48,996 nucleotides of DNA from an uncultured delta proteobacterium. Its GTDB lineage: Bacteria; Myxococcota_A; UBA9160; JAFDET01. Where the stretch lies: NCBI GenBank assembly GCA_947259215.1, contig CAMYLJ010000024.1:1-48996 (forward strand), in the 5' to 3' direction. Every line of letters begins with the position of its first letter. Position 1 is the stretch's first letter. The position numbers were made by a program, and so were the translations under genes. Shown here piece by piece: positions 2,430 to 32,975 of this stretch. The notes beneath the pieces were generated by a model, which saw only the letters and a list, made by a program, of their open reading frames with translations, had not been told where the DNA came from and did not search any database.

Positions 2430-3521
2430 CTAGTCTTCGATCAGGTTGTCGAAGAGCTCTTCGACGTCGTCGTCCACGGCGCTGGGCGCGGGGACGCCGT
2501 CCATGACGACGGTGGGCGGAGACTCGGGCTCGAAGAGGGACGCCTCCTCCGGGTCCTTCTCCAGCTCCTCGAAGGCGGGCATGGGCTCGTCCAGGCCGTC
2601 GTCGGAGAGGCCGGCCACCTCGTGGGTCAGGTCGATGGGCTCGCCGCCGGGGATGCCTCCGCCCACGCCCGGCGGCATGGAGTCCGCCAGCGAGGTGGGG
2701 CCCAGGTCTTCGCGGTAGCCCAGGGCCTCGGCCGCGCGCTCCACGTCCTCGGGCAACACCTGGGTGCGGCTCGACAGGTGGGCCTCGAAGAGCGCGTTGT
2801 CCGCCAGCGTGTTCATGCGCCGGGGCAGCCCGCGGCCGAGGACCTGGATGGCCTGCACGGTCTCGGGCTGGAGGAGGGTCGGATGGCCGCCGGCCGTGCT
2901 GACCCGGTGGGCCAGGTAGGCGGTGGCGGTGGGCACGTCGAACGGATCCAGGGTGACCCGCATGTCCAGTCGGTGGGGCAGCGCGGGGTCCAGGGCCACC
3001 ACCGCGTCGAGCCCCGGCTCGCCCACCAGGATCAGGGTCAGGAGATGGTGGTCCTCGTACTCCAGCTCGAGCAACGCGCGCAGCGCCGCCATGCACGCCG
3101 GGTCGCGCAGGCGCTGGGCGTCGTCGACGACGATCACCGGCCGGCGTCCCTCCTCGCGAAAAGCCGAGAGCCGGTCGTAGCACTGAGCCAGCGTCTCAAG
3201 GGGCGTCTCCGCCGGCTCCTCGACCCCGAGGCGCGCCGCCACACGGGCGAGCAGCCACTGGGCGTCCGCGTCGCCACGGACGATCGAGAGCAGACTGGCC
3301 TCGTAGGCCTCCTCCTCCAGCTCCTCCAACAGATGGCGCACCAGCATGCTCTTGCCGGCGCCGGGCTCGCCCAGGAGCAGGCAGAGGCCCTTGTGCTGCG
3401 CGATCCCGCGCATGAGGCGGCGCTCGGCGCCGCGGTGCACGGGGCTCTCGTAGTAGAACTGAAGTACGGGATCGTTGACGAAGGGATCCCGACTCAGACC
3501 GAACTCGCGCAGATGCTCCAC
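2430..3521 (-). CDS. ExeA/MshM-like AAA+ ATPase of the pilus locus
   Basis: The product is 363 residues. It opens with FGLSRDPFVNDPVLQFYYES and H-R-G-A-E-R-R-L, the start signature of the ExeA/GspA/MshM group. Walker A is GEPGAGKS (about residues 52-59). Walker B is VIVVDDAQ (about 130-137). A sensor region and a winged-helix-like lid follow. Residues after about 270 form an acidic tail ending VEELFDNLIED. Unlike ExeA it has no membrane segment or peptidoglycan-binding domain, so it is closer to MshM. Family members help build secretin or pilus machines. It starts at a GTG, 10 bases after the large TPR gene, with AGGGAG upstream, so the two are probably co-transcribed. The exact function is not known. 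Confidence 0.8.
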   Translation of the reverse strand: MEHLREFGLSRDPFVNDPVLQFYYESPVHRGAERRLMRGIAQHKGLCLLLGEPGAGKSMLVRHLLEELEEEAYEASLLSIVRGDADAQWLLARVAARLGVEEPAETPLETLAQCYDRLSAFREEGRRPVIVVDDAQRLRDPACMAALRALLELEYEDHHLLTLILVGEPGLDAVVALDPALPHRLDMRVTLDPFDVPTATAYLAHRVSTAGGHPTLLQPETVQAIQVLGRGLPRRMNTLADNALFEAHLSSRTQVLPEDVERAAEALGYREDLGPTSLADSMPPGVGGGIPGGEPIDLTHEVAGLSDDGLDEPMPAFEELEKDPEEASLFEPESPPTVVMDGVPAPSAVDDDVEELFDNLIED

Positions 3522-3531: not shown

Positions 3532-6500
3532 CTAGAGGAACGGAATCTTCTTCCTGCCCTTCTTCTTCTTGCGCTCGCGCTTCGGGGTGTCCTCGACGGC
3601 GGGCGGCTCCGGCTCGGGCTCGGCCTCCGCGTCGACCGGCTCCTCCTCGCTCAGGTCGGCGACCGGCTCGCCCTCCAGGACGGCGTCGGCGACCTCGTCG
3701 GCCAGCTCCTGGGCCAGGTCGAAGGAAGCGTCGTCCACGGGCGCGGCGTCCTCGACCGCCTCGCCGCCGAGCGCGCTCTCCGCCTCGGCGATGAGGTCGT
3801 CGAAGCTCTCGAAGGTCTCGACGGACTCCTCGCCGGTGTCGGCGCTGCCAGCCTGCGCGAGCTCGGCCAGACGCTCCTGCACGTCCTGATACTCCGGGTC
3901 GAAGGCGGCCACGGCTTCGTACTCGGAACGCGCGCGGGCCAGGTCGCCGTCTGCGGCGAACGCCGCCCCCAGGTCGTAGCGAAGCGCAGCCGCCTGGTCC
4001 CCCGGCACGCCGGGCAGCGCGAGGGCCTGCTCCAGGTGGGCCACGCTGTCGCGACTGCGGCCGAGGTCGAGGGCACACAGGCCCAGCATGTGCAGGCAGC
4101 CGAGCTTCCGATCCGGCGATTCCAGCGCGATCCGGAATTCGCCGACCGCGTCCTCCAGCAGGCCCATCTCCCGGTAGGCGATGCCCAGGTCGTAGTGCGC
4201 CTCGAAGTCGCTCTCGGAGAGCTGCTCTTTTACGCCCTTCTTGAACTCGCGGAAGATGGCGTCGAAGCTCTCGTCGCCCACCTCGGCGGCCGCACTCTCG
4301 CCCGTGGCCTCGGACTCGAAGACGTCGGAGAGCTCCGCGGCCAGGTCGAAGGTCGCCTCGGGAGCCGCCTCGTCTCGTGCGTCCGAGCCTTCGGCCGCGA
4401 GCGGCTCGTCGGCGATGGGCTCGGGCTCCTGGACCTCGTCCTCGGCGGACTCCTCTTCCTCCGCGACCTCCTCCTCCAGGACCTCGTCGAGCGCAACTTC
4501 GTCGTCCGCGACGTCAGCTTCCGCAGCGTCGTCGCTCGCGACTTCGTCGACTGCGATCTCGTCGTCCTCGACCTCGTCCTCCGCCGGGAGTTCCTCGTCC
4601 TCGGCGGCTTCCTCGTCCGCAAACGCTTCGTCGTCCGCGACGGCGAGGTCGGCCTCGTCGTCGAGCTCGAGATCCTCTTCCAGCGAGATGTCGCTGTCGT
4701 CCGTCTCCGCGCTCGCTTCCGCCGTCTCGGGAGGCAGGGAGCCGTCGTCCGCCGCGTCGTCGAGTGCCGCGATGCCGAGCTCGGGCTGCGTCTCGCCCAG
4801 GCTCTCGGACGCCTCGGCGACCGCGGTGTCGCCCGGGTCGGGCGGCTCGCCGTCGATGTCCACCTCGATCTCATCGTCGATCTCGGCGTCGGCCTCGTCG
4901 GCCGCACCGGCCTCGCCCGTGTCGGCGCCCGGCGCTGCGTCGGCCGCCTCCAGCTCGTCCCAGTCGGCGAGGTCGTCACCCAGCGTGTCGTCGGCGTCGG
5001 GCGTCGCCGCGTCCGCCGCCGCCTCCGGCTCCAGCGCCTCGCCGCCCGAGCTCCCCGGATCGCCCCCTCGCCTGGCCTCGATCTCGCCCAGGCGCAGCTG
5101 CGCCTGGGGATGGTTCGGCGCGGCCTCCAGGACGCGCTGGTAGAGGGTCTCCGCCTCGCCCAGCAGGTCCTGGTTGAAGTAGAAGTCCGCCTCCTCCAGA
5201 TCCTCGGAGATGGATGCCGGCGCGGAGGCCGCGTCCGGATCGGTCTCGTCGTCATCGGGGGTCTCGAACACCGTGTCGCTCGCGGCAGCCTGCATGACGG
5301 TCTGCTCCGCCGCGCCCGGCGCCTCCTCGGGGGCCGCGTCGAGCTCCGTGAGTTCGAGGTCGCCCTGCATCATCGTGACATCGGCTCCGCCGGGCTCCGA
5401 GACGTCGAAGTCAGCCTGCATCACGGTGGCGTCGGCCAGCGAGGGGAGCTCCGCGTCGAGATCGGAGATGTCGACGTCCACCTCGAGGTCGTCGTCGTCG
5501 ATCACGTCGTCTGCCAGACTGCTGGCGTCGTGGTCGGCGATCACGTCGGCTGCCAGGCCGCTGCCATCGTCGCCCAGCTCGATCTCGAGCTCGACGTCGT
5601 CCAGGGTCTCGGGCTCGCTCGCGACGGGCGTCTCTACCACCGCCACCGGCTCGGACGGCGGCGACGCCTCCGCGCCGCTCCCGAGCGACTCGGCCGCCGT
5701 GGCGTCCAGGGACCCGATGCGCTCGACCAGGGCCCGGAAGCCGTCCTCGTCGCCGGTCGCGCGCGCCACCTCCGCCGCGCGGGTCCAGCTGGCCACCGCC
5801 GCCTCCGACTGGCCGGCCTCGGACTGCGCCTCGCCCAGCCGCTCCAGCGCGAGCCGGTGATCGGGCTCGCTGTCGAGCAGCGCCTGGAGCGTCTGGATCG
5901 CGCGCTCCGCCTTGCCGTAGCGCAGGTAGACGCTCGCCTCGGCCATGATCTGCTCGGGATCGCCGGAGAGTCCGTCGCCGCCCGGCTCGCCCAGCTCGGC
6001 TGCGACGTCGTCGTCGACGCCGAGGCCCGGCTCGTCGCCAGGCGCCTCGATGGGCTCCATCGGCTCGGGTGCCAGCGAGGGCTCCGAGGCGGCGGCGGTG
6101 CCAACGGGCTCCGCGTCGTCGCCGAAGGTCGCCGCGTCGATCGAGTCCTCGGGCGAGCTGCCGCTGATCGGTTCGCCCGGACTTCCCATCTCGCCCACGA
6201 GTGCTTCCACGGGAGCGCCGCCCAGGTCGCCTCCGGCCGCGGCCAGATCCTCGGACGCCAGGAAGCGCTGGGTGATCTCGCGCGCCTTCGAGTCGTCACC
6301 GCGGTTGCGGTAGATCTCGGCCAGCTTGCGATACGTCTCCTCGACCGCGTCCTCGCGTCCGTCGGCGCGCTGGATCTCCGCCAGCATCTCGTGGCCCTCG
6401 GGACGCTCGGGGTCCGCCTCGATCAGCTTGCGCGCGAAGGGCTCGGCGCGCTGCGCGTTGCCCTGATCGATCAGCGCGCGCCCGACCGCGCTCAACGCGG

Positions 6501-7104
6501 ACGTGCGCTGCGGGTCGAGCTCGAGGATGCGCTCGTAGACGTTCAGGAGCTCTTCGCGCGCGCCCTGGCGCTCGAACTCCTCGGCCACTGCCTCGTACTC
6601 CAACAGCGCATCGCTGGGCATCTCGGCCTGCCTCAACAGGTCGGCGATCTTGAGGCGGCTCGTGGTGTTGGTGGGGTCGAGGGTCGCCATCTTGCGCAGC
6701 AGCTCGAGCGCGTCGCGCTTGCGGCCCTCGCGGTTGTAGGCGTCAGCAGCGGTCTGGAGCGCAGCCAGGGCCTCGGAAGTCAGACCCAGGCGCTGGTAGA
6801 GCTCGGCCAGCGGCTCGTAGATCTCGTACCGCTTGTCATCGATCTTGGCGATCTGCTTGTAGATCGCGACGGCCTTGGCGTCGAAGCCGTCCTGCATGAA
6901 CTGCTCGGCCACCTTCGTGTAGGCCGCGACGGCGTCGTCGCGATTGCCCTGACGCAGCTGGATGTCACCGAGCTTGAGCCGCGAGTTCGCGTCTCTCGGA
7001 TCCAGGTCCACGAGGGACCGGTACTCCTTCAGGGCCTTGTCGAGCTGGCCCTTCTGGAGGTACTTCTGGGCGTTCGCCAGGATCTTCCGCTTGTTGGCCG
7101 CCAA
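3532..7104 (-). CDS. large acidic TPR protein (1190 residues), possible pilus scaffold
   Basis: Seven or so TPR repeats fill residues 1-290 (LQKGQLDKALKEYRSLVDLD and similar). More TPR units occur at about 385-465, 638-680 and 960-1090. Between them lie long Asp/Glu/Ala-rich segments. Three copies of T-(V/M)-M-Q occur at about 560, 577 and 602. The end is strongly basic (RERKKKKGRKK). There is no signal peptide or membrane segment, so it is probably cytoplasmic. It starts at TTG (7102-7104) with GGGAG upstream. A sigma-28-like promoter lies at 7146-7172, and the ExeA-like gene follows 10 bases downstream. Location and architecture recall FimV-type TPR scaffolds of pilus systems, but I see no LysM domain, so this is an analogy only. 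Confidence 0.75.
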   Translation of the reverse strand: MAANKRKILANAQKYLQKGQLDKALKEYRSLVDLDPRDANSRLKLGDIQLRQGNRDDAVAAYTKVAEQFMQDGFDAKAVAIYKQIAKIDDKRYEIYEPLAELYQRLGLTSEALAALQTAADAYNREGRKRDALELLRKMATLDPTNTTSRLKIADLLRQAEMPSDALLEYEAVAEEFERQGAREELLNVYERILELDPQRTSALSAVGRALIDQGNAQRAEPFARKLIEADPERPEGHEMLAEIQRADGREDAVEETYRKLAEIYRNRGDDSKAREITQRFLASEDLAAAGGDLGGAPVEALVGEMGSPGEPISGSSPEDSIDAATFGDDAEPVGTAAASEPSLAPEPMEPIEAPGDEPGLGVDDDVAAELGEPGGDGLSGDPEQIMAEASVYLRYGKAERAIQTLQALLDSEPDHRLALERLGEAQSEAGQSEAAVASWTRAAEVARATGDEDGFRALVERIGSLDATAAESLGSGAEASPPSEPVAVVETPVASEPETLDDVELEIELGDDGSGLAADVIADHDASSLADDVIDDDDLEVDVDISDLDAELPSLADATVMQADFDVSEPGGADVTMMQGDLELTELDAAPEEAPGAAEQTVMQAAASDTVFETPDDDETDPDAASAPASISEDLEEADFYFNQDLLGEAETLYQRVLEAAPNHPQAQLRLGEIEARRGGDPGSSGGEALEPEAAADAATPDADDTLGDDLADWDELEAADAAPGADTGEAGAADEADAEIDDEIEVDIDGEPPDPGDTAVAEASESLGETQPELGIAALDDAADDGSLPPETAEASAETDDSDISLEEDLELDDEADLAVADDEAFADEEAAEDEELPAEDEVEDDEIAVDEVASDDAAEADVADDEVALDEVLEEEVAEEEESAEDEVQEPEPIADEPLAAEGSDARDEAAPEATFDLAAELSDVFESEATGESAAAEVGDESFDAIFREFKKGVKEQLSESDFEAHYDLGIAYREMGLLEDAVGEFRIALESPDRKLGCLHMLGLCALDLGRSRDSVAHLEQALALPGVPGDQAAALRYDLGAAFAADGDLARARSEYEAVAAFDPEYQDVQERLAELAQAGSADTGEESVETFESFDDLIAEAESALGGEAVEDAAPVDDASFDLAQELADEVADAVLEGEPVADLSEEEPVDAEAEPEPEPPAVEDTPKRERKKKKGRKKIPFL

Positions 7105-7253: not shown

Positions 7254-7688
7254 TTACCCGCGCAGGTGGGCGAGGAGACCACGAAGCCCGAGCAGGTAGC
7301 TGGCGGGGCCAAAGCCCGCCACCTGGCCCACGGCGATGTCCGCCACCAGCGAGGTGCGCCGGAATTCCTCCCGGGCGTGGACGTTGGAGAGGTGGACCTC
7401 CACCACGGGCAGGCCGCTGGCCAGCAGGGCATCGCGGAGCACGACGCTGGTGTGGGTCAGGCCCGCCGGGTTGATCAGGATGCCGTCGGCCCGTCCCGGC
7501 GCCCCCTGGAGGTGCTCCACCAGCTCCCCCTCGTGGTTCGACTGGAAGCGGCTGAGCTCGACGCCCTCCTCCTTGGCGGCGGCTTCGAGCTGGGCGTCGA
7601 TGTCGGCGAGGGTGGTGGACCCGTAGACCTCGGGCTCGCGCGTCCCCAGCAGGTTCAGGTTGGGCCCGTGGATCACCCAGATTTCCAT
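7254..7688 (-). CDS. aroQ: type II 3-dehydroquinate dehydratase
   Basis: This 144-residue enzyme dehydrates 3-dehydroquinate to 3-dehydroshikimate in the shikimate pathway. The length is normal for the dodecameric type II family. Its signature motifs are present: [17 protein letters not shown] at the start (catalytic Arg and Tyr), [31 protein letters not shown], and [14 protein letters not shown] (catalytic His). [11 protein letters not shown] comes near the end. ATG 7688 gives the family's usual N-terminus; the frame is open further upstream but has no homology there. The gene sits 94 bases after the Roadblock gene, so the shikimate genes aroK, aroB and aroQ are interspersed with regulatory TPR/Roadblock genes. 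Confidence 0.93.
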
Positions 7689-7782: not shown

Positions 7783-8157
7783 CTACAGCTCGTCGCGCAG
7801 GGCGGCCACGTGTCGGCGGATGAGATAGCGCGCCTTGCCCAGGTTGCCATCCGGCAGGAGCGCCACCACCACGAAGTACTCGTCGTCGACGACGTGGAAG
7901 ATCAGGTTCAGCCGCGCCAGACAGATCACCGACTCGCGCAGCGCGCCGCCGCCGAGCGCGTCGGACGCCTTCCCGATCTCGTCGAGGATGCGACCGAACT
8001 CGACGCCGGCGGCGTTGAACTCGTCCTCGAGGGCGCGGGCCCCGTCGCTGGGCGCGAGCACCTGGTCGATGGCGATGCCGTCGCGCCCCATGAGCGCGGC
8101 CCCCACCCCACCGATGCAGCCGTCCACGATGTCTCGAAGGATGCTCTGGAAGCTCAT
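7783..8157 (-). CDS. Roadblock/LC7 domain protein (MglB/MglC-like)
   Basis: The product is 124 residues, the size of a single Roadblock/LC7 fold. It opens with [20 protein letters not shown], then [11 protein letters not shown], and ends with hydrophobic strands ([20 protein letters not shown]) and a [10 protein letters not shown] helix. Such proteins regulate small Ras-like GTPases; in Myxococcus, MglB and its paralogue MglC act with MglA in pole and motility control. No MglA-type GTPase gene is in this window. It overlaps the upstream TPR gene by 4 bases (ATGA), so translation is probably coupled. The location close to pilMNOPQ supports a pilus-polarity role, which remains inference. Confidence 0.8.
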
Positions 8158-8825
8158 CTGGATTCTCTCCGCAGGTTCTCGAGCCAGCGCTCGAGCGTAG
8201 CGATCGCCTCGTCGCCGTCGTCGCTTCCGAGCGACGACCGCATGGAATCGGCGTGGCCGGCGTGCCCCTGCTGCTCGAGCAGGTCGGCCACGGTGCGGGT
8301 GGCCACGGGGAATTCGGCGCCCGGCGCGGCGTCCGGCTCCTCGGGACCGTCGAGCTCGGCGGCGCGCAGCGCCTGGGCGGCCACGGCGTCGGCGCTCACC
8401 ATGTCTTCGGTCACGGACGAGGCGCCGTCGAAGGCGGCGTCGATCTCGGGCTCGCCGATCGCCTCGAGATCCTCACCGTCGGGCGCCGGCGGGGCCAGCC
8501 CTTCCGACGGGAGCTCCGCCTCGTCCAGCGCGATCGGCGGGGAGACGGCCAGCGGATGATCCGGCACCCGGGCCACCACCCGCGCCAGCTCGCTGCGCGC
8601 CTCCTCCAGGCGCCCCAGGTCGAGGAGCGCCAGGCCGAGCGCCACGCGGCCGTCCACGGCCTCGGGGCGCCGGGCCAGGCCCTGGCGCGCCACTCGCTCC
8701 CCATCCTTGGGGCGGCCCGCGCGGCGCAGCGCCTCCGCCAGCGCCGGGAACGCCTGGGCTCCGGGGTCGTCGGCCAGCATGCTCTCGAGCCGCGCCACGT
8801 CGCCGGCGGGGATCTCCTCGTTCAC
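8154..8825 (-). CDS. small TPR protein, partner gene of the Roadblock protein
   Basis: The product is 223 residues. Residues 10-95 contain TPR-like helices (ARLESMLADDPGAQAFPALA, then RRPEAVDGRVALGLALLDLG, then RLEEARSELARVVARVPDHP). The middle is acidic and Ala-rich. The last 40 residues (VADLLEQQGHAGHADSMRSS, then ATLERWLENLRRE) look like another helical pair. No signal peptide or membrane segment is seen. It starts at GTG 8825, overlaps aroB by 4 bases and the Roadblock gene by 4 bases. The tight coupling suggests it works with the Roadblock protein. No function is established. Confidence 0.75.
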   Translation of the reverse strand: MNEEIPAGDVARLESMLADDPGAQAFPALAEALRRAGRPKDGERVARQGLARRPEAVDGRVALGLALLDLGRLEEARSELARVVARVPDHPLAVSPPIALDEAELPSEGLAPPAPDGEDLEAIGEPEIDAAFDGASSVTEDMVSADAVAAQALRAAELDGPEEPDAAPGAEFPVATRTVADLLEQQGHAGHADSMRSSLGSDDGDEAIATLERWLENLRRESR

Positions 8826-9949
8826 GCCCTTCCCTTCCGCGTGGATGTTGCTCGGCTGCGGGGGCGCCCGCTCCGCGGCGGCAGGATCTCGGCCGGTGTC
8901 AGCGGCACGGTTTCGGCCCGACCGATCCCGCGCAGCCCCACGAAGCGGATGTGGGCGTCCCGTCTCTTCTTATCGACGCGCAGCGCCGAGAGATAAGCCC
9001 GGCGCGGAAAATCCGGCGGCTGCGTGGGCAGCCCCAGCCGCGCCAGGAGTGCCTCCAGGCGACCCGCCGTGCCCGCGGGGGACATCCCGAGCGCCTCCGA
9101 GCGCTCGGCGGCGAACACCATGCCGATGGCCACCGCCTCGCCGTGGAGGATGCCCCGGTAGCGCTTCAAGGCCTCGATCGCGTGGGCCAGAGTGTGGCCG
9201 AAGTTGAGCAGCATGCGCAGGCCGGCCTCGCGCTCGTCCTGGGCCACCACCTCGGCCTTGATCGCGCAGGCCCGCTCCAGCACCGGCAGCAGGAGCTCCG
9301 GCTCGACCTCCAGCAGCCGCTCGCCCAGGGCCTCGAGTCGCTCGAAGAGCGCGGCGTCCCAGATGGCGCCGGCCTTCACCACCTCCGCCATGCCCGCGGC
9401 CCGCTGCCGGACCGGCAGGCTCCGGAGCGTGGCCACGTCGATCCACACGAGCCGCGGCTGGTGGAAGGCGCCGACCAGGTTCTTGCCCTGGGACAGGTTC
9501 ACGCCGGTCTTGCCGCCGATGCTCGAGTCCACCATGGCGAGCACCGTTGTCGGGACCTGCACGAAGGCGAGGCCGCGCAGGTAGGTCGCCGCGGCGAAGC
9601 CCGCCAGGTCGCCGGCCATGCCGCCGCCCAGGGCCACCACCACCGCGCTCCGGTCGAGGCCCTTCTCGAGGAAGGCGTCGTACAGGCGCGCCACCTGGCG
9701 CAGGTTCTTGGTCGCGTCTCCGTCGGGGACCTCGAAGCGGTGGGCGCGCAGACCGGCGGCGCGCAGGGAACGCAGCGCACGGGCGGCGTAGCGGCGCCCG
9801 ACGGGGGGCACGGTGACCACGGCGGCCGCCGACGCCTTGGTGTGGCGCAGCACGGCCTCGCCCAGCGCGTCCAGGGTGCCCTCGCCGAGCACGATGGGAT
9901 ACGAGCGCTCGCCCAGATCGACCTGCACGCTGCGCGTCCGGCGTCCCAT
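8822..9949 (-). CDS. aroB: 3-dehydroquinate synthase
   Basis: This 375-residue enzyme converts DAHP to 3-dehydroquinate using NAD and a divalent metal. The usual motifs are present: VPDGDATKNL, ALGGGMAGDLAGFAAATYLR, QVPTTVLAMVDSSIGGKTG, NLVGAFHQPRLV, EVVKAGAIWD, and the metal-binding GLRMLLNFGHTLAHAIE and HGEAVAIGM. ATG 9949 overlaps the aroK stop by one base (TGATG). The C-terminus after IGRAETVPLTPAEIL is a basic extension of about 20 residues. The aroK-aroB pair directly after pilQ is also seen in gammaproteobacteria. Confidence 0.96.
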   Translation of the reverse strand: MGRRTRSVQVDLGERSYPIVLGEGTLDALGEAVLRHTKASAAAVVTVPPVGRRYAARALRSLRAAGLRAHRFEVPDGDATKNLRQVARLYDAFLEKGLDRSAVVVALGGGMAGDLAGFAAATYLRGLAFVQVPTTVLAMVDSSIGGKTGVNLSQGKNLVGAFHQPRLVWIDVATLRSLPVRQRAAGMAEVVKAGAIWDAALFERLEALGERLLEVEPELLLPVLERACAIKAEVVAQDEREAGLRMLLNFGHTLAHAIEALKRYRGILHGEAVAIGMVFAAERSEALGMSPAGTAGRLEALLARLGLPTQPPDFPRRAYLSALRVDKKRRDAHIRFVGLRGIGRAETVPLTPAEILPPRSGRPRSRATSTRKGRA

Positions 9950-10467
9950 CAGAGCCTCTCGACCACCCTCTCGACCACGGCCTCCACGTCGTCTCCCTCG
10001 CTGCACACGACCACGCTCGCCGTCTCGTAGGCCGCGCGTCGCGCGTCCAGGAGCTCCCGGAGCTTCTCCAGGCGCCCGGCGGGGTCGAGGCCGTGCAAGA
10101 GCGGCCGCCGTCGCCCGCTGCCCACCCGCGCCAGCAGCGCCTCGGGGCTGGCCTTGAGGTAGACGACCGTGCCCGTCTGCGCCAGACGCGCGGCCGCGCC
10201 GGGCTGGGCGATCGCCCCGCCGCCGAGGGCCACCACCCGGTCCCCGTCGGCCAGCGCCTCGATCGCCTCGCGCTCGCGGCGGCGGAAGCCCGCTTCGCCC
10301 TCGCTCTCGAAGATCGCCTTCACGCTCCGACCCGCCGCGCGCTCGACCTCGGCGTCGCTGTCGGCGAAGGGCCGCCCCAGGCGCGCCGCCAGCGCGCGGC
10401 CCACGGCCGACTTCCCGGCGCCCATCATGCCCACCAGCCAGATCGTGCCCGCGTCGCTCCCACCCAC
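9949..10467 (-). CDS. aroK: shikimate kinase
   Basis: The product is 172 residues, normal for the family, and phosphorylates shikimate with ATP. Walker A is GMMGAGKS (about residues 13-20). The substrate region has DSDAEVERAAGRSVKAIFE, with Asp and the following Arg/Glu residues conserved. GGGAI and the lid region (GSGRRRPLL) follow. The start is GTG 10467, without any ribosome site upstream. A TATACT box lies exactly 7 bases before it, which would place the transcription start on the start codon. A terminator-like hairpin separates the gene from pilQ, 76 bases upstream. It is followed by aroB with a one-base overlap. Confidence 0.94.
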   Translation of the reverse strand: MGGSDAGTIWLVGMMGAGKSAVGRALAARLGRPFADSDAEVERAAGRSVKAIFESEGEAGFRRREREAIEALADGDRVVALGGGAIAQPGAAARLAQTGTVVYLKASPEALLARVGSGRRRPLLHGLDPAGRLEKLRELLDARRAAYETASVVVCSEGDDVEAVVERVVERL

Positions 10468-10543: not shown

Positions 10544-13270
10544 CTAGGACCCGAGCTGCGGCATGTCCACGATCCTCGGCGTGACGAAGATCAGGAGCTC
10601 CTTGCGGATGTCCCGCAGCAGGGTGTTCTTGAACAGGTTCCCGACCACCGGGATCGAGTGCAGGTAGGGCACCCGGCTCTGGCGGTCGGACTTCTGGATC
10701 GTGTAGATCCCGCCGATCACCAGGGTCTGGCCGTCACGCACGAGGGTCTCGGTCTTCGCCTCGTTCTTCGCGATGGCCGGGGCGCCACCCGGGGCCGCCA
10801 CCGAGTCGTCGGGGGCGTTCCGGGTCACCTCGAGCTGCATGATGATGCTCTTGTCCGCCGTGATGTGCGGCTTCACCTTGAGCAGCAGCACCGCGTCGAC
10901 GAACTGCAGCTGGGCATCGCCGTTCTCGAACGTCTGGAACGGGATGGCGGTACCCTGCTGGATCTGCGCCTCGCGGTTGTCCATCGTCACCACGCGGGGG
11001 CTCGAGATCACCTTGCCCTCACCCGTGCTCTCCGCCGCCTGGAGCTGCGCCTCGAGGTTGAACTTGTCGTCCAGCACGAAGGCGCCCAGGTTTGCCAGAG
11101 CCGTCGGGAGCGAGGTGATCGGGTTGTCCACCACGAAGTTGTTGAGCTCGCCGGAACCGTCGAGCAGCCGCGGATCCGGGCGCACCCGGAAGTCGCGACC
11201 ACCCAGATCCTGGCGGTCTCCACTGCTGGTATCGAACCCGTCGTTGTAGCGCTGCACGCCGAAGCCCCAGACCAGACCCAGCTCGCGGCTGAAGTCCAGG
11301 TTGGCCTCGACGATCTTCGCCTCGATCAGGACCTGCGGAGTCGGCGTGTCGATGGCCTTGATGAGCGCCACCGACTCGTCGATCACCGACGGGATGTCCT
11401 TGATGATGACGGTGTTCGTGCGCGCGTCGGTGTTCACCGTACCGCGCGGCGAGAGCAGCCGCTGCACCATCTTGGACACGTTGCCCACGGTCGCGTAGTT
11501 CACCGGCTGGAACTTCACGACCAGGTCCTCGAGCTTCTCCTTGGCCCGCCGCTCCTGCAGCCGCGCCTCGGACTCGGTCTGGAGCAGGTTCTGCGGTGCG
11601 ATCCGCAGCACGTTGCCCACCTTGACGAAGCCGAGACCCTTGGTCAGCAGGATGACGTCCAGGGCCTGGTCCCACGGCACGTCGACGAGCCGCAGGGTGA
11701 CCTTCCCGACCACGTCGTCGCCGGCGATGATGTTGAGGTCGGAGACCTCGGCGATCAGCCGGAGCACGTCGTCGATGTCGACGTCCTTGAAGTCCAGCGA
11801 GATGCGGCGCCCGAGGTACTGCTTGCCGTCCAGCAGGCCTCCCTCGCGCAGGGTGTCGAGACCCTCCTGGCCGTTCGGGCTGGCCGGCGGCTGGCCCGCC
11901 ACCAGGGTCGAGCCGGCAGCACCCGCCTCACCGGCCACGATGGCCGGCGGCGTCTGCGCCACGCCCGCCGTCTCCTGGAACGAGACCACGATGTTGGCAC
12001 CCTCGCGGATCACCAGCGGCTGCAGCGCCTGGGCGCGGGTGATCACCACCCGGACCTCGGGCCTCGCCACTTCGGGCTGCTGGAACGCCATCACCAGCGA
12101 CACGGGGCCGCCCGGCTCCGGCGCGATCCGCGCCTCGGCACCCGGCACCAGCGCCGCCTCGAGCAGGCTTACCACGACGGTGTCGGCGTCGGGCTCGAAG
12201 AGCTGGTAGCTCGCCGGGCCCTCGGTCACGATCACGACGCGGCTGCTACCGGCACCCGAGTGATAGTCGACCTGCGAGACCGTGGTCCCCGCGTCCAGCA
12301 TCTGCGCCTCGGAGGCGGCCTGCGGCTCATCCGCGGCCATCTCTTCCGCCGGAGCCTCCGCCATCTCGGCCGGCGGGCTCATGTCCGCCGCGGCCGCAGC
12401 CACGTCCGGCGGGCCCACGAAGAGCCCGTCGCGCGTCGGCACGGCGCTCCAGCCCGCGAGGCCGTCGCCCTCCGACGTGCCGTCGAGCACGATCCGGAGC
12501 TTCTCCGGGTGCTCGCCAATCCGAACCTGGGCCACCGCAGCCGAATCCACCGGCACCTGGGCCGCCGTCAGCAGGTTCTCCAGGGGCGGCAGGTCCACGA
12601 CCAGCCGGGTCGGATTGTCCAGCGCGAAGGCGTCAGCGCCCTGGATCGGGCCGTTCGCCCGCAGATGGATGCCGTCGGCGTCGCCGTCGACGCTCATCAG
12701 CTGCGTCGCGTCCGCCACCGGCGCCAGCATCGGCGCGGCCTCTTCGACCTCCGCCACCGGCTCGCTGTCGAACGTGAAGGCCTCGGCCGGGTCGGCGTCG
12801 GCGAGCGTCGTCGGCAGTGCCGGCTCCGCCTCCACCGGCGTCACCTGGACCGCCAGGCCCGCACCCTCGGGCATCACCTGGTACTCGACGTCCTGGTCGA
12901 GGGCCAGCTCCACCCGCGTGAACGGGGCCCCGGCGGCGTCGACCATCGGGGTCACCGCCACCTCTTCCACCACGCCGGCCACGAGGGCGATCTCCTCGGG
13001 CACGCTCCCGGGCTGGATCCCGTCGAGATCCAACGTGAGCGTGCCCGCCTCGCGGTCATGCATCGCGGTATAGAGCGGACTGCCGATCCCCTCGAGGCTC
13101 ACGACGGTCATGTCGCCGCGCTGCTCGACGTGGACGTCGGACAGAGCCGTCACGTCCGCGCTGGGATCGCCCGGTGCGGACTGCGTCGCGCACGCCACGC
13201 CCCAGCACAGCAGGCTCAGGCCCAGCAGCCTGGCGAGCCGCACCCTTCCTTCGGTCTTGGCTGCGCTCAT
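10544..13270 (-). CDS. pilQ: type IV pilus outer-membrane secretin PilQ
   Basis: The product is 908 residues and forms the outer-membrane channel for the pilus. It starts with an export signal (LLGLSLLCWGVACATQ) whose Cys could be lipidated, though the lipobox is imperfect. AMIN-like beta domains that bind peptidoglycan fill much of the first 450 residues. The secretin N0/STN domain begins near GRRISLDFKDVDIDDVLRLI, followed by N1 (QERRAKEKLEDLVVKFQPVN). The secretin core contains VISSPRVVTMDNREAQIQQG and ends VPYLHSIPVVGNLFKNTLLR, KELLIFVTPRIV. An Ala/Glu-rich linker lies near residues 280-330. The ATG overlaps the pilP stop by 4 bases. Confidence 0.96.
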   Translation of the reverse strand: MSAAKTEGRVRLARLLGLSLLCWGVACATQSAPGDPSADVTALSDVHVEQRGDMTVVSLEGIGSPLYTAMHDREAGTLTLDLDGIQPGSVPEEIALVAGVVEEVAVTPMVDAAGAPFTRVELALDQDVEYQVMPEGAGLAVQVTPVEAEPALPTTLADADPAEAFTFDSEPVAEVEEAAPMLAPVADATQLMSVDGDADGIHLRANGPIQGADAFALDNPTRLVVDLPPLENLLTAAQVPVDSAAVAQVRIGEHPEKLRIVLDGTSEGDGLAGWSAVPTRDGLFVGPPDVAAAAADMSPPAEMAEAPAEEMAADEPQAASEAQMLDAGTTVSQVDYHSGAGSSRVVIVTEGPASYQLFEPDADTVVVSLLEAALVPGAEARIAPEPGGPVSLVMAFQQPEVARPEVRVVITRAQALQPLVIREGANIVVSFQETAGVAQTPPAIVAGEAGAAGSTLVAGQPPASPNGQEGLDTLREGGLLDGKQYLGRRISLDFKDVDIDDVLRLIAEVSDLNIIAGDDVVGKVTLRLVDVPWDQALDVILLTKGLGFVKVGNVLRIAPQNLLQTESEARLQERRAKEKLEDLVVKFQPVNYATVGNVSKMVQRLLSPRGTVNTDARTNTVIIKDIPSVIDESVALIKAIDTPTPQVLIEAKIVEANLDFSRELGLVWGFGVQRYNDGFDTSSGDRQDLGGRDFRVRPDPRLLDGSGELNNFVVDNPITSLPTALANLGAFVLDDKFNLEAQLQAAESTGEGKVISSPRVVTMDNREAQIQQGTAIPFQTFENGDAQLQFVDAVLLLKVKPHITADKSIIMQLEVTRNAPDDSVAAPGGAPAIAKNEAKTETLVRDGQTLVIGGIYTIQKSDRQSRVPYLHSIPVVGNLFKNTLLRDIRKELLIFVTPRIVDMPQLGS

Positions 13271-19485: not shown

Positions 19486-22400
19486 CTACTGGAGCTCGCG
19501 CCAGTAGAAGATGCCCTGGCCGGCGTTCGGCAGCGGCGGCGCGGGCGGCTTCTTGACCTCGTTCTCACTCGTCATCACGTAGATGTCGGCATCGTCACCC
19601 AGGGAGAGCCGCGAGGTGGTCGGCACCCCGTTCCCCAGGCTCAGCCGTCGCTTGTCGGCGGCGTTCGTGTTGCCCGGGAAGAAGCCCTCGCCGCTGTTCA
19701 CCTTGAAGATGTAGAGCGTCGCGGTTCCGCCCGAATCGCACGGGTCCCCACTGCCGTTCGGCGTGAAGGCGCCAGCGAACACGTAGAAGCCGATGATGTC
19801 CACCTCGGTCACGAACTTCTCGCCCTCGGGAGACACCAGGTAGTAGCCCATGGTGCTGAAGCTCGCGGCGCCGCTCACGTTCGTGATGTCCGTCAGGTCG
19901 GATTCCAGGATCTCCAGCGGACCGCTGCCACCGCGGTACGTGTTCATGTCCGGAAGGCCGAACTGATCGGGGTCCTCGAAGGAGTAGAAACGGTTGTTCT
20001 CCGAGTCGTCCAGCGGATCTGCCCCGCCGAAGGACGGATTTGCCCGCTCCCCCGTCCCTACGGCCAGCCACAGATCACCCCCGTAGATGGTCACGGCCGG
20101 CGGGAAGAAGAAGCTCTTGTAGTAGTCCGTCCCGCTGATCGTGGCCGAGGGCGCTGTGAACATCTTGCCGAAGGGCCACGCGCTCTGGCTCTTGTTCACG
20201 GTGCGGTCGGAGGGGCCAGGCAGCATCGGGTTGATGCTGTCCAGCGCCGGATCCCGGATCACCCACTTCCAGAGGTTGCCGCCGAGGTCGCCGATGTAGA
20301 CGATGTCGGCGAAGCCGTCGAAGTCACTGTCGATCACCGCGGGCGTGGAGGCGAAGCCGTACTGCATCGCCGAGTGCCCGCCCGCCGCGTTGCCCAGGGT
20401 GGGGTCCGCATCATTGTGGTGATAGAAGTGGGCCGCCAGCACCGCCCCCGTCTTGATGTCCACCATGAACACGCCCCGGCCCTTGCGGCTGGTGGCTGCG
20501 TCGGCCGTGGCGTCGTACGAGGTGGTGTTGGGATCGCTGCTCGGGTCGTAGCCCGCCCCGAAGATCGCGACCCAGCGCTCGTACACGCCGCCCGTGACGT
20601 CGCCCTGCACGTTCACCTTGACGCGGGTGATGATGGCCTTCGACCAGCTGTCACCCATGTAGTCCAGGTAGGTGTAGGTGCCCGAGGAGTCGAACCCGCG
20701 GGTCTCCCCTTCGAGCGGGAACTCCCACAGGTAGCCCGGATAGCTCGAGCCGAGGCTCGGGTCCGTCACGTCCAGCGCGAAATAGGCCGGCCCGCCCTGG
20801 CGCATGGACCCCACCAGCGCGGTCTTCCACTCGGACTGCGTCTTGGTGGGAGGCAGGCTCAGGTTGCTCGACGTGGCCGTCGGGTACATCCAGACGTCGG
20901 CGACGGACGGCGAGCCGTCCACGTAGTAGTAGCTCCGGTTGCCGATATCGATCGGGAGCTCCTTGATCGTCGTGCGGGCGTACCACGGCATGAAGCCGAA
21001 CCGCTCGACGCCCGTGCCGCGATCGTACACGCCGCCACCCACGTAGTTCCCCGAGTTGAAGGCGTGCAGGAAGCCCCCGTTCGAGCCGGCCATCAGGTGG
21101 CGCGTCCGCGTCGCGAACGTGGTGGCGAACTGCGCGTACGACAGCTCCGCGATGGACGTGTTGGGCGCACCCACCACGATCGGATCCGAGTGGAAGACGT
21201 CCGCCAGGGTCCGCGGGTTGCCGTCGATCCGCAGCCGCTCGAGGCAGGTGTTGGTGACCCCTGTCCCGAACGAGCAGCCGCGGACGTACTGCACGATCTC
21301 GTCCGCCAGTTCTTCCGCGTTCGTGGCGGCGCTCCCCGGGTAGGAGACCACGGGCGGATACGTCACCCCGAGCTGCACCGCGTTCGTGGCGAAGCTCTGG
21401 TCCCAGTTGAAGCGCGCGCCCGCAACGCTGGTGTAGAGCGTTCGCGCGTTCGGGTCCGGCATCTCGTCGGCTGCGTCCCAATGGGGCACCGCGCTCGGCA
21501 GGATCGGGCCCTCTTCACACTGGCTCGGCACCGGATCGTTCAGGGCGCAGTTGTTGTTCGCGTCCACGATCTCACCCGCCGCGTTCAGGGTGAAGGCCTT
21601 GATGTGGCCTTCCCAGAACGGGTCCGTCCCGGACGGAATGAAGAAGCTCGAGTAGAAGTTGCCCTGATCGGCCGTACGGGTCGCGGGGACCGTCGCTGCG
21701 GTGAAAGCCTGGGACTTCTGGATGATGTCCGTGATCGCCGCGATCAGCTGGGTGGCCAGCTGCTCGGCGTTGTTGCTGGTGTAGAACTGGCCGTTGCCCA
21801 GGGTCGCCGCAGAGCTCAGCAGCGCGTTGGCCGCAGCGTTGGTGGTGAATCCCACCGTGTACACGTCGATGTTCTGCACGCCCTGGAGGACCGGGTTGAA
21901 GTCCTTGTCCTGCATGAACTTGGCGACGTCGTCCAGGTAGAAGGCGCACTCGCTGCACGAGCCGCCCTTCTCGCCGGCCTCGGACGAGCCCGGCGCGTAG
22001 TCGCCGGTCGCGTAGTCGCCGATCAGGCTGGTCTTGAAGCTGCCGAAGCCAGCGTCGACGCGCGGACCGCCTCCCGGGCCGCTGCTGTCGGTGTCGAAGT
22101 CGTCGCGCGTCGGCTCACCGTCCGTCACGATGATCACGAAGCTCTTCTGGCAGTGGTACTGTACGGGTGACGGCGGCGGGCTGGCCGTCACGGCCCCGCC
22201 CTCGCCGGCGTCGCTGGTGCTGTAGTTGTACAGCGGGAAGCGGGTGCCGCTCGTCGTGGGCGGCGGACCCGTGCCCGGCGTGATGCCGAACGGCCGCTCC
22301 GAGCTCGTCCGGCTCATGAAGTACGTATAGACCTGGAAGAGCGTCTCCGCGAGCGGCGTCCACGTCTCCGGCGACAGGTTGGCGATCGCGTTCTCGAGCG

Positions 22401-23070
22401 CCGTGTCCTGGGCGGTGGAGTAGTCGTCGACAGGCACGATCACGTGTCCGCCCTCGGGGTCTCCCTCCTCGCGGAACTGCGCGATGCCGAACCGGACCTT
22501 GCCGGCCGCGTTCACCTGACAGATCACGTCGCGCAGCACGTCCTGGAGAGCCGTGGCTCGCGAGCGCCGGTACTTGAGGTAGGTCTGCTGCGACGCCGGG
22601 AGGGTGTTCTTGATGATCACGCACTGCGAGCGCGTACCGATCCCGCCCGACGCGCTGCCGGCGATCTCGTTGAGATACTGAGCGTGGGTCGGATTCGCCG
22701 AGTCGAGGCCGAAATACCACTGGAGGTAGACCGGATCCCAGCGGGTCGACCTGCCGCTCGGGAGATCGCCGTCGTGGTACAGGGTTCGCGTCTTTCCGCA
22801 GTACGTGTAGTTCGTGTCGGAAGTCACATAGTGGGTGCCGGCAGGCGTCGTGCACCACCACGCCGGCGTGGGGCTGACGCCCGGATCGAAGGCCGGATGC
22901 CAGACTGTGTGGGCCATGGACCCGGAGTTGTCGGCGACGATCAGGACGTTGGGCGCCACGGACGTCGAGAACAGCACCGAGTCGTCGGCGCGCCCCGCGC
23001 GGCCCGGCGTCAGCAACGCCAGGGCCATCGTCAGGATGCCAAGAATGCGAAGGAAGTTCGGAACGCGCAT
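19486..23070 (-). CDS. pilY1: type IV pilus tip adhesin PilY1
   Basis: The product is 1194 residues. A signal peptide (LRILGILTMALALLTPGRAG) is followed by a von Willebrand A-like domain with a metal motif DNSGS (D47, S49, S51) and VIIVTDGEP near residue 320. The C-terminal half is the PilY1 beta-propeller, including FALDVTDPSLG and the calcium loop DSDFDGFAD (about 911-921) before IVYIGDLGGNLWKW. It acts at the pilus tip with the minor pilins in adhesion and surface sensing. I chose ATG 23070 because GGGAG lies seven bases upstream; 15 further residues are open upstream. It lies between pilX and the PilY2-like gene. Confidence 0.94.
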   Translation of the reverse strand: MRVPNFLRILGILTMALALLTPGRAGRADDSVLFSTSVAPNVLIVADNSGSMAHTVWHPAFDPGVSPTPAWWCTTPAGTHYVTSDTNYTYCGKTRTLYHDGDLPSGRSTRWDPVYLQWYFGLDSANPTHAQYLNEIAGSASGGIGTRSQCVIIKNTLPASQQTYLKYRRSRATALQDVLRDVICQVNAAGKVRFGIAQFREEGDPEGGHVIVPVDDYSTAQDTALENAIANLSPETWTPLAETLFQVYTYFMSRTSSERPFGITPGTGPPPTTSGTRFPLYNYSTSDAGEGGAVTASPPPSPVQYHCQKSFVIIVTDGEPTRDDFDTDSSGPGGGPRVDAGFGSFKTSLIGDYATGDYAPGSSEAGEKGGSCSECAFYLDDVAKFMQDKDFNPVLQGVQNIDVYTVGFTTNAAANALLSSAATLGNGQFYTSNNAEQLATQLIAAITDIIQKSQAFTAATVPATRTADQGNFYSSFFIPSGTDPFWEGHIKAFTLNAAGEIVDANNNCALNDPVPSQCEEGPILPSAVPHWDAADEMPDPNARTLYTSVAGARFNWDQSFATNAVQLGVTYPPVVSYPGSAATNAEELADEIVQYVRGCSFGTGVTNTCLERLRIDGNPRTLADVFHSDPIVVGAPNTSIAELSYAQFATTFATRTRHLMAGSNGGFLHAFNSGNYVGGGVYDRGTGVERFGFMPWYARTTIKELPIDIGNRSYYYVDGSPSVADVWMYPTATSSNLSLPPTKTQSEWKTALVGSMRQGGPAYFALDVTDPSLGSSYPGYLWEFPLEGETRGFDSSGTYTYLDYMGDSWSKAIITRVKVNVQGDVTGGVYERWVAIFGAGYDPSSDPNTTSYDATADAATSRKGRGVFMVDIKTGAVLAAHFYHHNDADPTLGNAAGGHSAMQYGFASTPAVIDSDFDGFADIVYIGDLGGNLWKWVIRDPALDSINPMLPGPSDRTVNKSQSAWPFGKMFTAPSATISGTDYYKSFFFPPAVTIYGGDLWLAVGTGERANPSFGGADPLDDSENNRFYSFEDPDQFGLPDMNTYRGGSGPLEILESDLTDITNVSGAASFSTMGYYLVSPEGEKFVTEVDIIGFYVFAGAFTPNGSGDPCDSGGTATLYIFKVNSGEGFFPGNTNAADKRRLSLGNGVPTTSRLSLGDDADIYVMTSENEVKKPPAPPLPNAGQGIFYWRELQ

Positions 23071-23121
23071 GATCGCTCTCCCGCTAATGCTCGAGTCGTG
23101 GCCCCGCCGGCGCACGATTCC

Positions 23122-23661
23122 CTAGCCCCCGTAGCCCGAGAAGTTGAGGTCGCGCTTGCCGACCTCGACGCTCGACGACCCGCCGTTGGGCCCGGTGCCG
23201 AGCGAGTTGACCTGCCAGTACGAAATCAAGAAGCCCGTGTTGCCGCCCTGCGGGAGCTTCATTCCAATCGAGGTGGGCGGCCCGTCCCGCGTCCAGCACA
23301 GCGCCCGGGCGGGCGTGCAGGGGGAATTCCCCAGGTCGCCCGTGAACTGCGGCTGGGTCGTGTACGGATAGTCCGCCGCCGTGCCCAGGGAGGTCACCGT
23401 GATCGCGGGCGGCGTGAAGCGGTTGGGCCGTCCGCGCAGGATGTCGAGGCCGGTGTGAGCACCGGCTTCCGCCGCGTAGAACGCGATGCGGCTGCGCTTC
23501 TCGAAGCCGGTGACCTGCTGATCGCGGCTCACGGTATCCATGGCCGCCAGGCCGATCATGCCCATGAAGACCAGCAGCAGCACGGCCACCAGCAGGGCCG
23601 AGCCGTCCTGCCGCGGCTCCGTGGGTTCCTCTTCCAGATGTCGCGTCGGGTCGTTCATCAT
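23122..23661 (-). CDS. pilX: minor pilin PilX
   Basis: The product is 179 residues. The prepilin start is unusual: 20 residues (ending RQDG), then SALLVAVLLLVFMGMIGLAA. Mature position 5 is Val, not Glu, as in tip-like GspK/PilX pilins. The following YAAEAGAHTGLDILRGR is typical of PilX N domains. It helps prime pilus assembly with FimT, PilV, PilW and PilY1. ATG 23661 overlaps the pilW stop by one base; a second ATG at 23658 is equally possible. pilY1 follows 51 bases downstream. Confidence 0.88.
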   Translation of the reverse strand: MMNDPTRHLEEEPTEPRQDGSALLVAVLLLVFMGMIGLAAMDTVSRDQQVTGFEKRSRIAFYAAEAGAHTGLDILRGRPNRFTPPAITVTSLGTAADYPYTTQPQFTGDLGNSPCTPARALCWTRDGPPTSIGMKLPQGGNTGFLISYWQVNSLGTGPNGGSSSVEVGKRDLNFSGYGG

Positions 23662-24695
23662 CACAGGTCCCTGAAGCCCACGTTTCGCGTCCGGATCACG
23701 GCCCGGTGCACGCGCCGCCGGAAACGATCGGTCCCGGCTGGCGCCGTCCGATTCTCGGTGGCCTGGAAGCGTCCCTCGCTGTAGCTGACGTTCGGATCCT
23801 GGCCCCGGGTGCGCATCACGAAGCTCAGCCGCACCTCCCGCAGGTCGTTCCCCACGGCGGCAGCGGAGCTGTAGACGGGCGGGTTGTGCCCACCGCCCTG
23901 GGCCAGTGCGCCCGGCTCCTCGGACCCGTTGGCCGCGGGCACCCCGTTGTTGTCGATGTCGAAGAAGAACGAGACCTGGAAATCCTCGACGTCGGTCGCC
24001 AGAAGCGTCCCGTCCCGGATCAGGTTGAGAGTGCCAGGGGCGATCGTGTAGCGATGCGCGGGCACCGCCACGAAGGCGCCGCCTACGCCCGCAGCCAGCT
24101 GGGACTCCCAGTTCACCGAAACGTTCATGGCCGCACCCGGATTCGGATTTGCGGGGATCGTGGTGATCACGCCGCATGCGGCGCCGCGCGCCGTGTTGCT
24201 GACGTCGGTGACGATGATGCCGCCGTTCTGGATGAAATCGGTGTCCATGATCGCGTCCGCATCGACGTCGAAGAACGCTCCGTCACCGTCCGGAATCGCG
24301 CTGTCAGCGAGAGTCATGTTCGCGCCGCTGCTGCCCGTCACGAATCCGTACGGCGGCGTGCTCGTGATGTTCACGGCCACGTCCGGATCGTTCACGCCCG
24401 TGGGATTGAGCTGGTCGGAAGCGCTGATGTAGAGGACGTCGGGGCCATTGGTGCTGTCCACGGCACAGACGGCGGCGCCCTCGGGCACGAGCAGGCCGAG
24501 CTCGCGGATCTCGGCCTCCAACAGGCCCGCGATCGCCCGGGAGTTCTGCTGGGCCTCGGTCAGGTGCTCCACCACCGTGTAGGTGCGGTGCTGGACCGTG
24601 AACGTCTGCATCAGGTACATCACCACGATCGCCATCAGGGCGGTCGCGATCAGAAGCTCGATCAACGTGAAGCCGGCGAGGCGTCGCGGGGCCAT
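23661..24695 (-). CDS. pilW: minor pilin PilW
   Basis: The product is 344 residues. The leader MAPRRLAG is cut before FTLIELLIATALMAIVVMYL, with Glu at mature position 5. The remainder is a large globular domain with a Gly/Asp/Ala-rich beta region (DGDGAFFDVDADAIMDTDFI) and a C-terminal segment RRRVHRAVIRTRN typical of PilW. It belongs to the priming complex. ATG 24695 shares one base with the pilV stop. Confidence 0.9.
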   Translation of the reverse strand: MAPRRLAGFTLIELLIATALMAIVVMYLMQTFTVQHRTYTVVEHLTEAQQNSRAIAGLLEAEIRELGLLVPEGAAVCAVDSTNGPDVLYISASDQLNPTGVNDPDVAVNITSTPPYGFVTGSSGANMTLADSAIPDGDGAFFDVDADAIMDTDFIQNGGIIVTDVSNTARGAACGVITTIPANPNPGAAMNVSVNWESQLAAGVGGAFVAVPAHRYTIAPGTLNLIRDGTLLATDVEDFQVSFFFDIDNNGVPAANGSEEPGALAQGGGHNPPVYSSAAAVGNDLREVRLSFVMRTRGQDPNVSYSEGRFQATENRTAPAGTDRFRRRVHRAVIRTRNVGFRDL

Positions 24696-25132
24696 CAGTA
24701 GTTGAACCTCACGGTGGAGACGACCATCTGCTTGTTCGGGTTCGGATCCTCGGGCTCGGTCCAGCTGACGCGCACGTCCACGTTGCGGGTCTGGCCCACC
24801 ACGACGTCCGCCACGCGCTGCTCGAGTCCGAAGGTCATCTCGGTGTAGGTGCCGCTGTTGGCATCCACCTGGATGGTGACGGGCGCCAGCACGGTCCAGC
24901 CTCCGGTGGGCGGCACCGAGGCCCAAGGCAGATACTGGACGGTCTCCATCCGGTCCTGGGCCACGATGGTGGCCTGCATGACGTGCTTGCTCTCGCGTCC
25001 CGTCTGGAGCGAGTAGATCTGCATCGCCGCCAGCCCCAGGAGGCCGAAGGCCAGCACGGTCAGGGCGATCAACACCTCGAGCAGCGTGAAGCCCGCCGTG
25101 GTCCGCTCTCGTCGCGTGGTTTTTCGCTGCAT
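24695..25132 (-). CDS. pilV: minor pilin PilV
   Basis: The product is 145 residues. The leader MQRKTTRRERTTAG precedes FTLLEVLIALTVLAFGLLGL, with Glu5 and the GLLGLAAMQ pattern of PilV/GspI proteins. A small globular domain follows (TMTIQ-like strands, NVDVRVSWTEPED). ATG 25132 overlaps the fimT stop by one base. The frame stays open for 300 codons upstream, but that is antisense to fimT coding. Confidence 0.9.
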   Translation of the reverse strand: MQRKTTRRERTTAGFTLLEVLIALTVLAFGLLGLAAMQIYSLQTGRESKHVMQATIVAQDRMETVQYLPWASVPPTGGWTVLAPVTIQVDANSGTYTEMTFGLEQRVADVVVGQTRNVDVRVSWTEPEDPNPNKQMVVSTVRFNY

Positions 25133-25782: not shown

Positions 25783-25831
25783 GCGTTGCTTCCTCCCGCG
25801 GAGCCTCCGCCCCGCGTCCACCGGGACCAGG

Positions 25832-25847
25832 AGCAAGGCTCGTGCCA
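25832..25847 (-). promoter_or_regulatory. sigma-54 promoter of the fimT-pilY1 operon
   Basis: TGGCAC (25847-25842), five bases GAGCC, then TTGCT (25836-25832) on the minus strand is an exact -24/-12 sigma-54 element. The predicted start is near 25822, leaving a 40-base leader to GTG 25782. PilR, encoded two genes upstream, is the likely activator. The sequence match is direct; the link to PilR is inferred. Confidence 0.85.
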
Positions 25848-25926
25848 TGCGTGACTTCTCGGCCAACCCGTTGAGAGACTTGATGCTTTGGAGTTCGGGG
25901 CAGGACTTCAGCAGCCGGCAGAACCA

Positions 25927-25947
25927 CGCAGTCCGGTTCGCACTGCG
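25927..25947. promoter_or_regulatory. palindrome upstream of the sigma-54 promoter, candidate PilR enhancer
   Basis: CGCAGT (25927-25932) and ACTGCG (25942-25947) flank a 9-base spacer. The centre lies about 115 bases upstream of the predicted start, the normal distance for NtrC-type enhancer sites. A single palindrome is seen, whereas many enhancers are doubled. Identification as a PilR site is inference. Confidence 0.5.
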
Positions 25948-25964
25948 CAAGAATCTTCAGAGTG

Positions 25965-27458: not shown

Positions 27459-27466
27459 CGCCCGTC

Positions 27467-30585: not shown

Positions 30586-30593
30586 CGTTCGGG

Positions 30594-31805: not shown

Positions 31806-31825
31806 ACCCTGTCACCCCCCCCTTC

Positions 31826-31847: not shown

Positions 31848-31856
31848 AGGATGTAG

Positions 31857-32960: not shown

Positions 32961-32975
32961 GGCCCGGACGTCTCC

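Follow-up and report, generated by a model that had tools for sequence, protein, structure and literature searches.

A TPR protein gene overlapping mglC in uncultured Myxococcota may encode an MglC adaptor that docks by its C-terminal helix

MglC is part of the machinery choosing which cell end makes pili, and its place in the reversal switch of Myxococcus is between RomR and MglB. In the stretch of DNA analysed here (48,996 nucleotides, hereafter the window), the gene for a small Roadblock protein is overlapped by the gene for a short TPR protein, and the question is whether the two belong to this switch and what the TPR protein would do there. The original prediction of a 223-residue TPR protein and a single-domain Roadblock protein sharing a 4-base overlap was borne out. 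Both ORFs are present on the minus strand, the TPR gene at 8154..8825 with a GTG start and the gene of the 124-aa Roadblock protein at 7783..8157, and the stop of the former and the start of the latter share the bases ATGA at 8154..8157. With a probability of about 0.5, we propose that the pair consists of mglC and a gene whose product is an adaptor of MglC, docking through its C-terminal helix.

The pair lies in a pilQ-aro region, as had been claimed. Upstream on the minus strand are aroB (3-dehydroquinate synthase, 8822..10006; Pfam DHQ_synthase, E 8.4e-46), aroK (shikimate kinase, 9949..10467; Pfam SKI, E 2.4e-43) and pilQ, encoding a secretin with AMIN domains (10544..13270; Pfam Secretin, E 8.6e-47, and AMIN, E 3e-18), together with ORFs assigned as pilP to pilM from gene order. 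Downstream on the same strand are aroQ, encoding a type II 3-dehydroquinate dehydratase (7254..7688, start codon taken at MEIWVIHG; NCBIfam TIGR01088, E 1.6e-56, above cut-off), a gene for a 1190-aa TPR protein (3532..7104) and a gene for an AAA ATPase (2430..3521; Pfam AAA_22, E 4.5e-21, and TIGR03015, E 1.4e-39, below cut-off). Since the 1190-aa protein matches the NCBIfam SgmX model NF052243 (E 6.9e-66) with 223.3 bits against a cut-off of 1800, it is named SgmX-like only. Its best stretch covers profile positions 2-387 of 1065, mainly the N-terminal third, and its middle is strongly acidic by eye; the MglA-binding part may therefore differ. In line with the original prediction, a scan of eight proteins encoded around the pair found no Ras-like GTPase.

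Further along the window, the genes for PilY1 (19486-23115), PilR (27467-28858), PilS (28855-30585), PilC (30594-31805), PilT (31857-32960) and PilB (32976-34679), identified by Pfam domain and order, indicate a type IVa pilus cluster. PilX-like (23122-24177) was identified in the same way, and positions 19486-34679 hold a large share of the type IVa pilus gene set.

As judged from its sequence, the 124-aa Roadblock protein is MglC, which firms up the earlier description as MglC-like. Its sole PDB match is M. xanthus MglC (7ct3, E 7.1e-15; phmmer, E up to 10), and a profile of 34 sequences (A3) matches MglC in the PDB with E 2.7e-34, the next Roadblock protein following at 2.3e-5. The same profile has mglC as its single match in the genome of the window (E up to 1). 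Pfam gives no match to the protein at E up to 1 and NCBIfam does not recognise it either; the Pfam model Robl_LC7, run on this genome, picks up MglB and a second, weak match but misses MglC. The AlphaFold2 model (pLDDT 92.8) adopts a Roadblock fold and lacks the extensions that MglB carries at its N- and C-termini. Among the 50 matches listed in a structure comparison, 7ct3 has a Z of 15.9 and the top identity of 27%, while MglB chains reach Z 17.9, so the fold by itself cannot tell MglC from MglB. With hhalign, the protein did not convincingly match the MglB of its own genome (probability 5.4%, 22 columns). The assignment draws on sequence, on gene order and on the fact that the genome also encodes MglA, MglB and a RomR-type candidate.

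The search for mglA that the original prediction had suggested as a check found MglA in this genome. The genes mglB and mglA are adjacent on another contig (G000:C50), and their products match the M. xanthus structures 6h17 (MglA, E 2.6e-103) and 6h5b (MglB, E 7.8e-61). Within the phylum, MglA is found in 282 of 377 genomes at E up to 1e-30, and the M. xanthus MglC query has a match in 205 of the 377, with a best identity of 49%; the genome of the window is counted in both. MglA is also present in 14 of 17 genomes chosen from those behind loci L067-L102 (16 of desulfuromonad type and L085).

A response regulator gene lies on the contig of the window itself, 17 kb past the window end (about C24:66434-68049). 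Its product combines a receiver with a tail, LEKIAWEAF...EEIAWEVIPQMAEAL. In M. xanthus, the C-terminal helix of RomR is reported to bind MglC, with W394 needed and E390, K391, W394 and E402 important (PMC12719032). The tail found here (LEKIAWEAF...EEIAWEVIPQMAE) fits E390, K391, W394 and E402 when RomR is compared by its reported positions alone, and it has E at +8 from the second Trp and K at -3 from the first Trp. The name RomR-type, not RomR, fits this sequence likeness. A 66-aa query made from the tail gave candidates in at least 17 of 377 genomes, which is no count of RomR because of this short query and the scoring of the best 16 candidates per genome. With the receiver as query, relatives were found in 13 of 16 genomes, and tails of the WE[VI][VI]P type are present in at least 12 of the 17 loci examined, four of the loci coming from the tail query and some of the remainder running past the locus end.

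The TPR protein matches Pfam TPR_16 (E 4.7e-9) and TPR_19 (E 9e-9) above cut-off. In its AlphaFold2 model (mean pLDDT 82.2), TPR helices at residues 26-94 (pLDDT 93-98) are followed by a low-confidence linker, a helix pair at 177-198 and a C-terminal helix at 204-222, of which residues 211-220 have a pLDDT of 89. While the repeats and the linker are variable, the tail helix follows the consensus hhxTLERWLxN[LI]; in the window, the codons of the C-terminal motif (residues 210-223) are at 8157..8198 on the minus strand. Between the last repeat and the motif lie 23 to 269 residues, with a median of 52 (57 of 67 sequences, those with a recognisable repeat). This variable spacing, together with a confident TPR block, a weak linker and an end helix, is the layout of a docking peptide on a tether.

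In a 42-row alignment (A2), L211, W214 and L215 are the only invariant columns. The rows had been picked with a pattern demanding a similar core, which partly forces the conservation of L, W and L, and the case for conservation is therefore built on loci that were not selected in this way. Among these, [LFM]..WL occurs within the last 34 residues of the upstream ORF in 61 of the 65 loci where pilQ, aroK or aroB was found, and in 63 of all 80 loci, as compared to 4 of 578 other marker ORFs taken as controls. The stricter pattern L..WL..[IL] is absent from the last 40 residues of all 578 control ORFs, and the 61 ORFs matching it among 5929 six-frame ORFs of at least 100 aa are, every one, TPR ORFs. 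Columns outside the pattern are conserved as well: among 65 tails, T is kept in 42, E in 47, R in 47 and N in 50 (L156-L159, L161, L162 and L172 were left out as repeats). Three of the four loci without the motif among the 65 have LL in place of WL (L083, L084, L089), the fourth being L081. In L034, where no pil or aro gene was found, the contig edge cuts the TPR gene and the motif is still visible; L070, likewise with no pil or aro gene found, has a TPR ORF without the motif in frame. The remaining 11 of the 80 loci belong to a clade without the TPR gene. The three LL loci are of the desulfuromonad clade and their tails are of the LNGLLASIQKRRGDV type, natural variants in which the motif Trp is replaced by Leu.

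Of 40 genomes examined, 31 have a Roadblock match, that of the window included. Twenty of these 31 loci were fetched, and in all 20 an ORF with the tail of the TPR protein ends beside mglC by eye, so the pair is not a chance arrangement. Across 120 loci, some from repeated genomes, pilQ-aroK-aroB-TPR-mglC-aroQ-sgmX-like-ATPase is the dominant order in the lineage of the window. The TPR gene precedes mglC in two separated clades, one of uncultured Myxococcota and one of desulfuromonads, mostly with overlapping ends; of 66 loci tallied, 39 have the ATGA-type offset of the window between TPR stop and mglC start. One holder of the pair is the cultured Malonomonas rubra (L068). In the desulfuromonad clade, the TPR ORF is followed by mglC and aroQ in 18 of 18 loci, and in none of the 18 fetched stretches was an SgmX-like ORF found besides the TPR ORF.

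The original prediction had drawn a parallel with the genes of Myxococcus, where we take mglC and pilQ to be MXAN_5770 and MXAN_5772. This parallel holds in part. In the clade with M. xanthus MglC, most loci pair mglC with aroQ and many also include an SgmX-like ORF, but this TPR gene was not found at mglC in the loci examined. M. xanthus enters this clade by its MglC sequence, and the loci examined are those of other members. A second copy of the TPR gene elsewhere was sought in 19 genomes taken as TPR-less with profile A2. The matches there are 3.7e-13 or weaker as compared to 3.3e-60 for the gene of the window, and among the listed matches only the latter passes profile position 201 of 240. 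As the others stop before the tail, no ortholog at a second site is indicated in those 19 genomes.

In a quickly built tree with 111 MglC rows, those with the TPR gene fall into two clades and the 38 TPR-less rows, including M. xanthus, into one, with a support of 93 for the latter in a tree built on few columns. This distribution would be explained by a single loss on the TPR-less branch or, if the root falls within the TPR-less clade, by a single gain, and transfer of the TPR gene is a further conceivable explanation. In L081, a short frame with one TPR-like repeat and no W motif lies between aroB and mglC. It is possible that this remnant represents a stage in the loss of the TPR gene. Separately, mglC and aroQ share a locus even where no pil gene, aroK or aroB was found (for example L071, L077, L085, L092 and L095), and the link between these two genes may hence be older or tighter than the link to the pilus genes.

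In M. xanthus, K104, R106 and R110 of MglC bind RomR while F25, D26 and I28 bind MglB, according to PMC10329633. By alignment, the KRR patch is complete in the MglC of the window. In the FDI patch, D26 and I28 are kept and F25 is replaced by Arg. Position 25 is F in 24 of the 41 MglC rows without the TPR gene and varies across the class of the window, where F is not the rule; the contact between MglC and MglB may therefore differ from that in M. xanthus. A basic residue, R or K, occupies position 111, beside R110 on the RomR-binding face, in 67 of the 70 rows linked to the TPR gene, compared with 4 of the other 41. Of these four exceptions, three come from L034, L070 and L081, and with these moved to the TPR-linked set the counts become 70 of 73 against 1 of 38 (L143, L156-L159, L161, L162, L165, L171 and L172, being repeated genomes or places, were left out of the MglC residue counts). 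Because the two sets follow the clades, this correlation amounts to one contrast and not many, and shared descent would explain the sequence pattern equally well. All 18 rows of the desulfuromonad clade have R111, but 17 have lost R110 and 8 have lost K104, so conservation of the RomR-like face is uneven. Mutual information between the motif and MglC was not convincing, reaching at most 0.306 in 50 pairs from the class of the window (0.281 in the largest of 40 shuffles) and 0.228 in all 65 pairs (0.243 after shuffling). The joint top pairing among the 65, between motif position +1 (E or N) and MglC 110 (R or M/L/T), has this value of 0.228, under the shuffled maximum, and is clade-bound.

We infer from these observations that the TPR protein may dock on MglC. 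The two proteins would be made together from overlapping genes, and the C-terminal helix, held on a linker of variable length, would bind the MglC dimer. The binding site would most likely be the basic face of the last helix of MglC, comprising K104, R106 and R110 plus the additional R111 (numbered as in M. xanthus), which is the site taken in M. xanthus by the Trp-bearing C-terminal helix of RomR. The TPR repeats could in turn retain a further client close to the pole, the SgmX-like protein, PilB/PilM and the RomR-type regulator being candidates. In this way the TPR protein would either couple the polarity switch with the machinery of the type IV pilus or compete with RomR for MglC. The suggestion that the TPR protein is an undescribed partner of the Roadblock protein thus gains from the adjacency of the genes, their frequent overlap and the C-terminal helix shared by two clades, whereas the partnership itself is read from sequence and stays putative. 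No description of the protein or its tail was found in the literature searched, available mostly in less than full text (including PMC11580455, PMC7519303, PMC7668184, PMC7949163, PMC12719032, PMC10329633 and PMC3983030). While the MglC family is known, the likely novelty is the TPR adaptor with its docking helix, as yet unproved.

Tentatively, and with less confidence than the adaptor reading itself, we consider that the TPR protein could be an ancestral dedicated MglC adaptor, whose Trp helix would dock on the MglC dimer and rival or replace the RomR C-terminus, whose repeats would carry MglC to the pilus machine and which would have been lost, with the MglC arginine, on the Myxococcus branch. 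Such a loss would account for work on M. xanthus not having met the protein. The MglC experiments cited here were done in M. xanthus, and an additional subunit with a defined short helix, conserved in two other clades, would show how the switch is tied to the pilus elsewhere. If true, the adaptor hypothesis comes down to one Trp in one 15-residue peptide.

The adjacency and overlap of the TPR gene and mglC may reflect shared expression alone. It is possible, though we lean against it, that the TPR protein acts in the same pilus pathway with its tail helix bound to the SgmX-like protein, PilM/PilB, MglB or MglA. The company of the pair favours such a role, as the cluster also carries pilQ, pilM-pilO-like ORFs and the SgmX-like gene, with pilB, pilT and pilC inside the window, and MglA is described as bound by TPR proteins in M. 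xanthus and Bdellovibrio (PMC7519303, PMC3983030). However, the desulfuromonad loci retain the TPR-mglC pair in 18 of 18 cases with no SgmX-like ORF found in the fetched stretch, and it is mglC that follows the TPR gene, mostly with overlapping ends. A housekeeping neighbour of the aro genes, without any role in polarity, is an improbable reading of the TPR protein. Its gene does sit between aroB and mglC-aroQ, and mglC and aroQ are together in 11 of 80 loci where no pil gene, aroK or aroB was found (among them L034, cut at the TPR gene, and L070, which has it), but three loci of the M. xanthus clade (L133, L134, L169) have aroB, mglC and aroQ and lack the TPR gene, which is therefore not tied to the aro genes.

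We regard it as highly improbable that the Roadblock protein serves as a GAP-type Roadblock of another GTPase. The Arg at position 25 of the MglB-binding patch, not kept as F in the class, would agree with such a function, yet among PDB entries the sequence matches MglC alone, hhalign gave no convincing match to the genome's own MglB, and D26, G27, I28, G67, G103, K104, R106 and R110 are retained. Hardly credible is an explanation of the tail conservation by RNA or by the ribosome-binding site of mglC instead of the peptide. The final TPR codons are rich in AGG, GGA and AGA, and the basic residues behind the motif overlap the likely mglC ribosome-binding site and may be retained for that. The L..WL.N[LI] core, however, lies further upstream, the codons of L211-L218 being 15-38 nt ahead of the mglC start in the window, and in L035 and L155 it is kept although 28 bases separate the end of the TPR stop from the mglC start. 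Moreover, the motif leucines use five and six kinds of codons, with CTC, CTG, TTG, CTT and TTA among them, which indicates that selection acts on the protein.

Among known systems, SgmX and Bd2492, which are MglA effectors, resemble the TPR protein of the window, itself a putative member of the MglA-pilus pathway, as TPR proteins of that pathway. Unlike these, it is short (223 aa), adjoins mglC and ends in a W helix; the SgmX model is absent from its six NCBIfam matches (E up to 1), and the SgmX-like protein of the window, with 1190 aa, is encoded separately, downstream of the pair. The TPR pilotins Tgl, PilF and PilW are similar in being TPR proteins encoded with pilus genes, but the N-terminus of the window protein (MNEEIPAGDVARLES) has no lipoprotein signal by eye, and no pilotin model is among its NCBIfam matches. 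With RomR it shares a Trp in a C-terminal helix past a disordered stretch, as described for RomR in PMC12719032. The RomR-type tails (EKxxWEVxPxxAE) and the TPR tail (LERWLxN[LI]) do not look homologous, and the RomR-type gene is separate from the TPR gene in the same genome. As for the Roadblock protein, it differs from M. xanthus MglC (PDB 7ct3, 7cy1) by R at F25 of the FDI patch, by the extra R at 111 and by the TPR gene overlapping mglC upstream, none being found there in loci of the M. xanthus clade. The two are alike in having a single Roadblock domain of about 120 aa with the start MSF, in keeping D26, G27, I28, G67, E71, G103, K104, R106 and R110, and in occurring within one genome together with MglA, MglB and a RomR-type gene.
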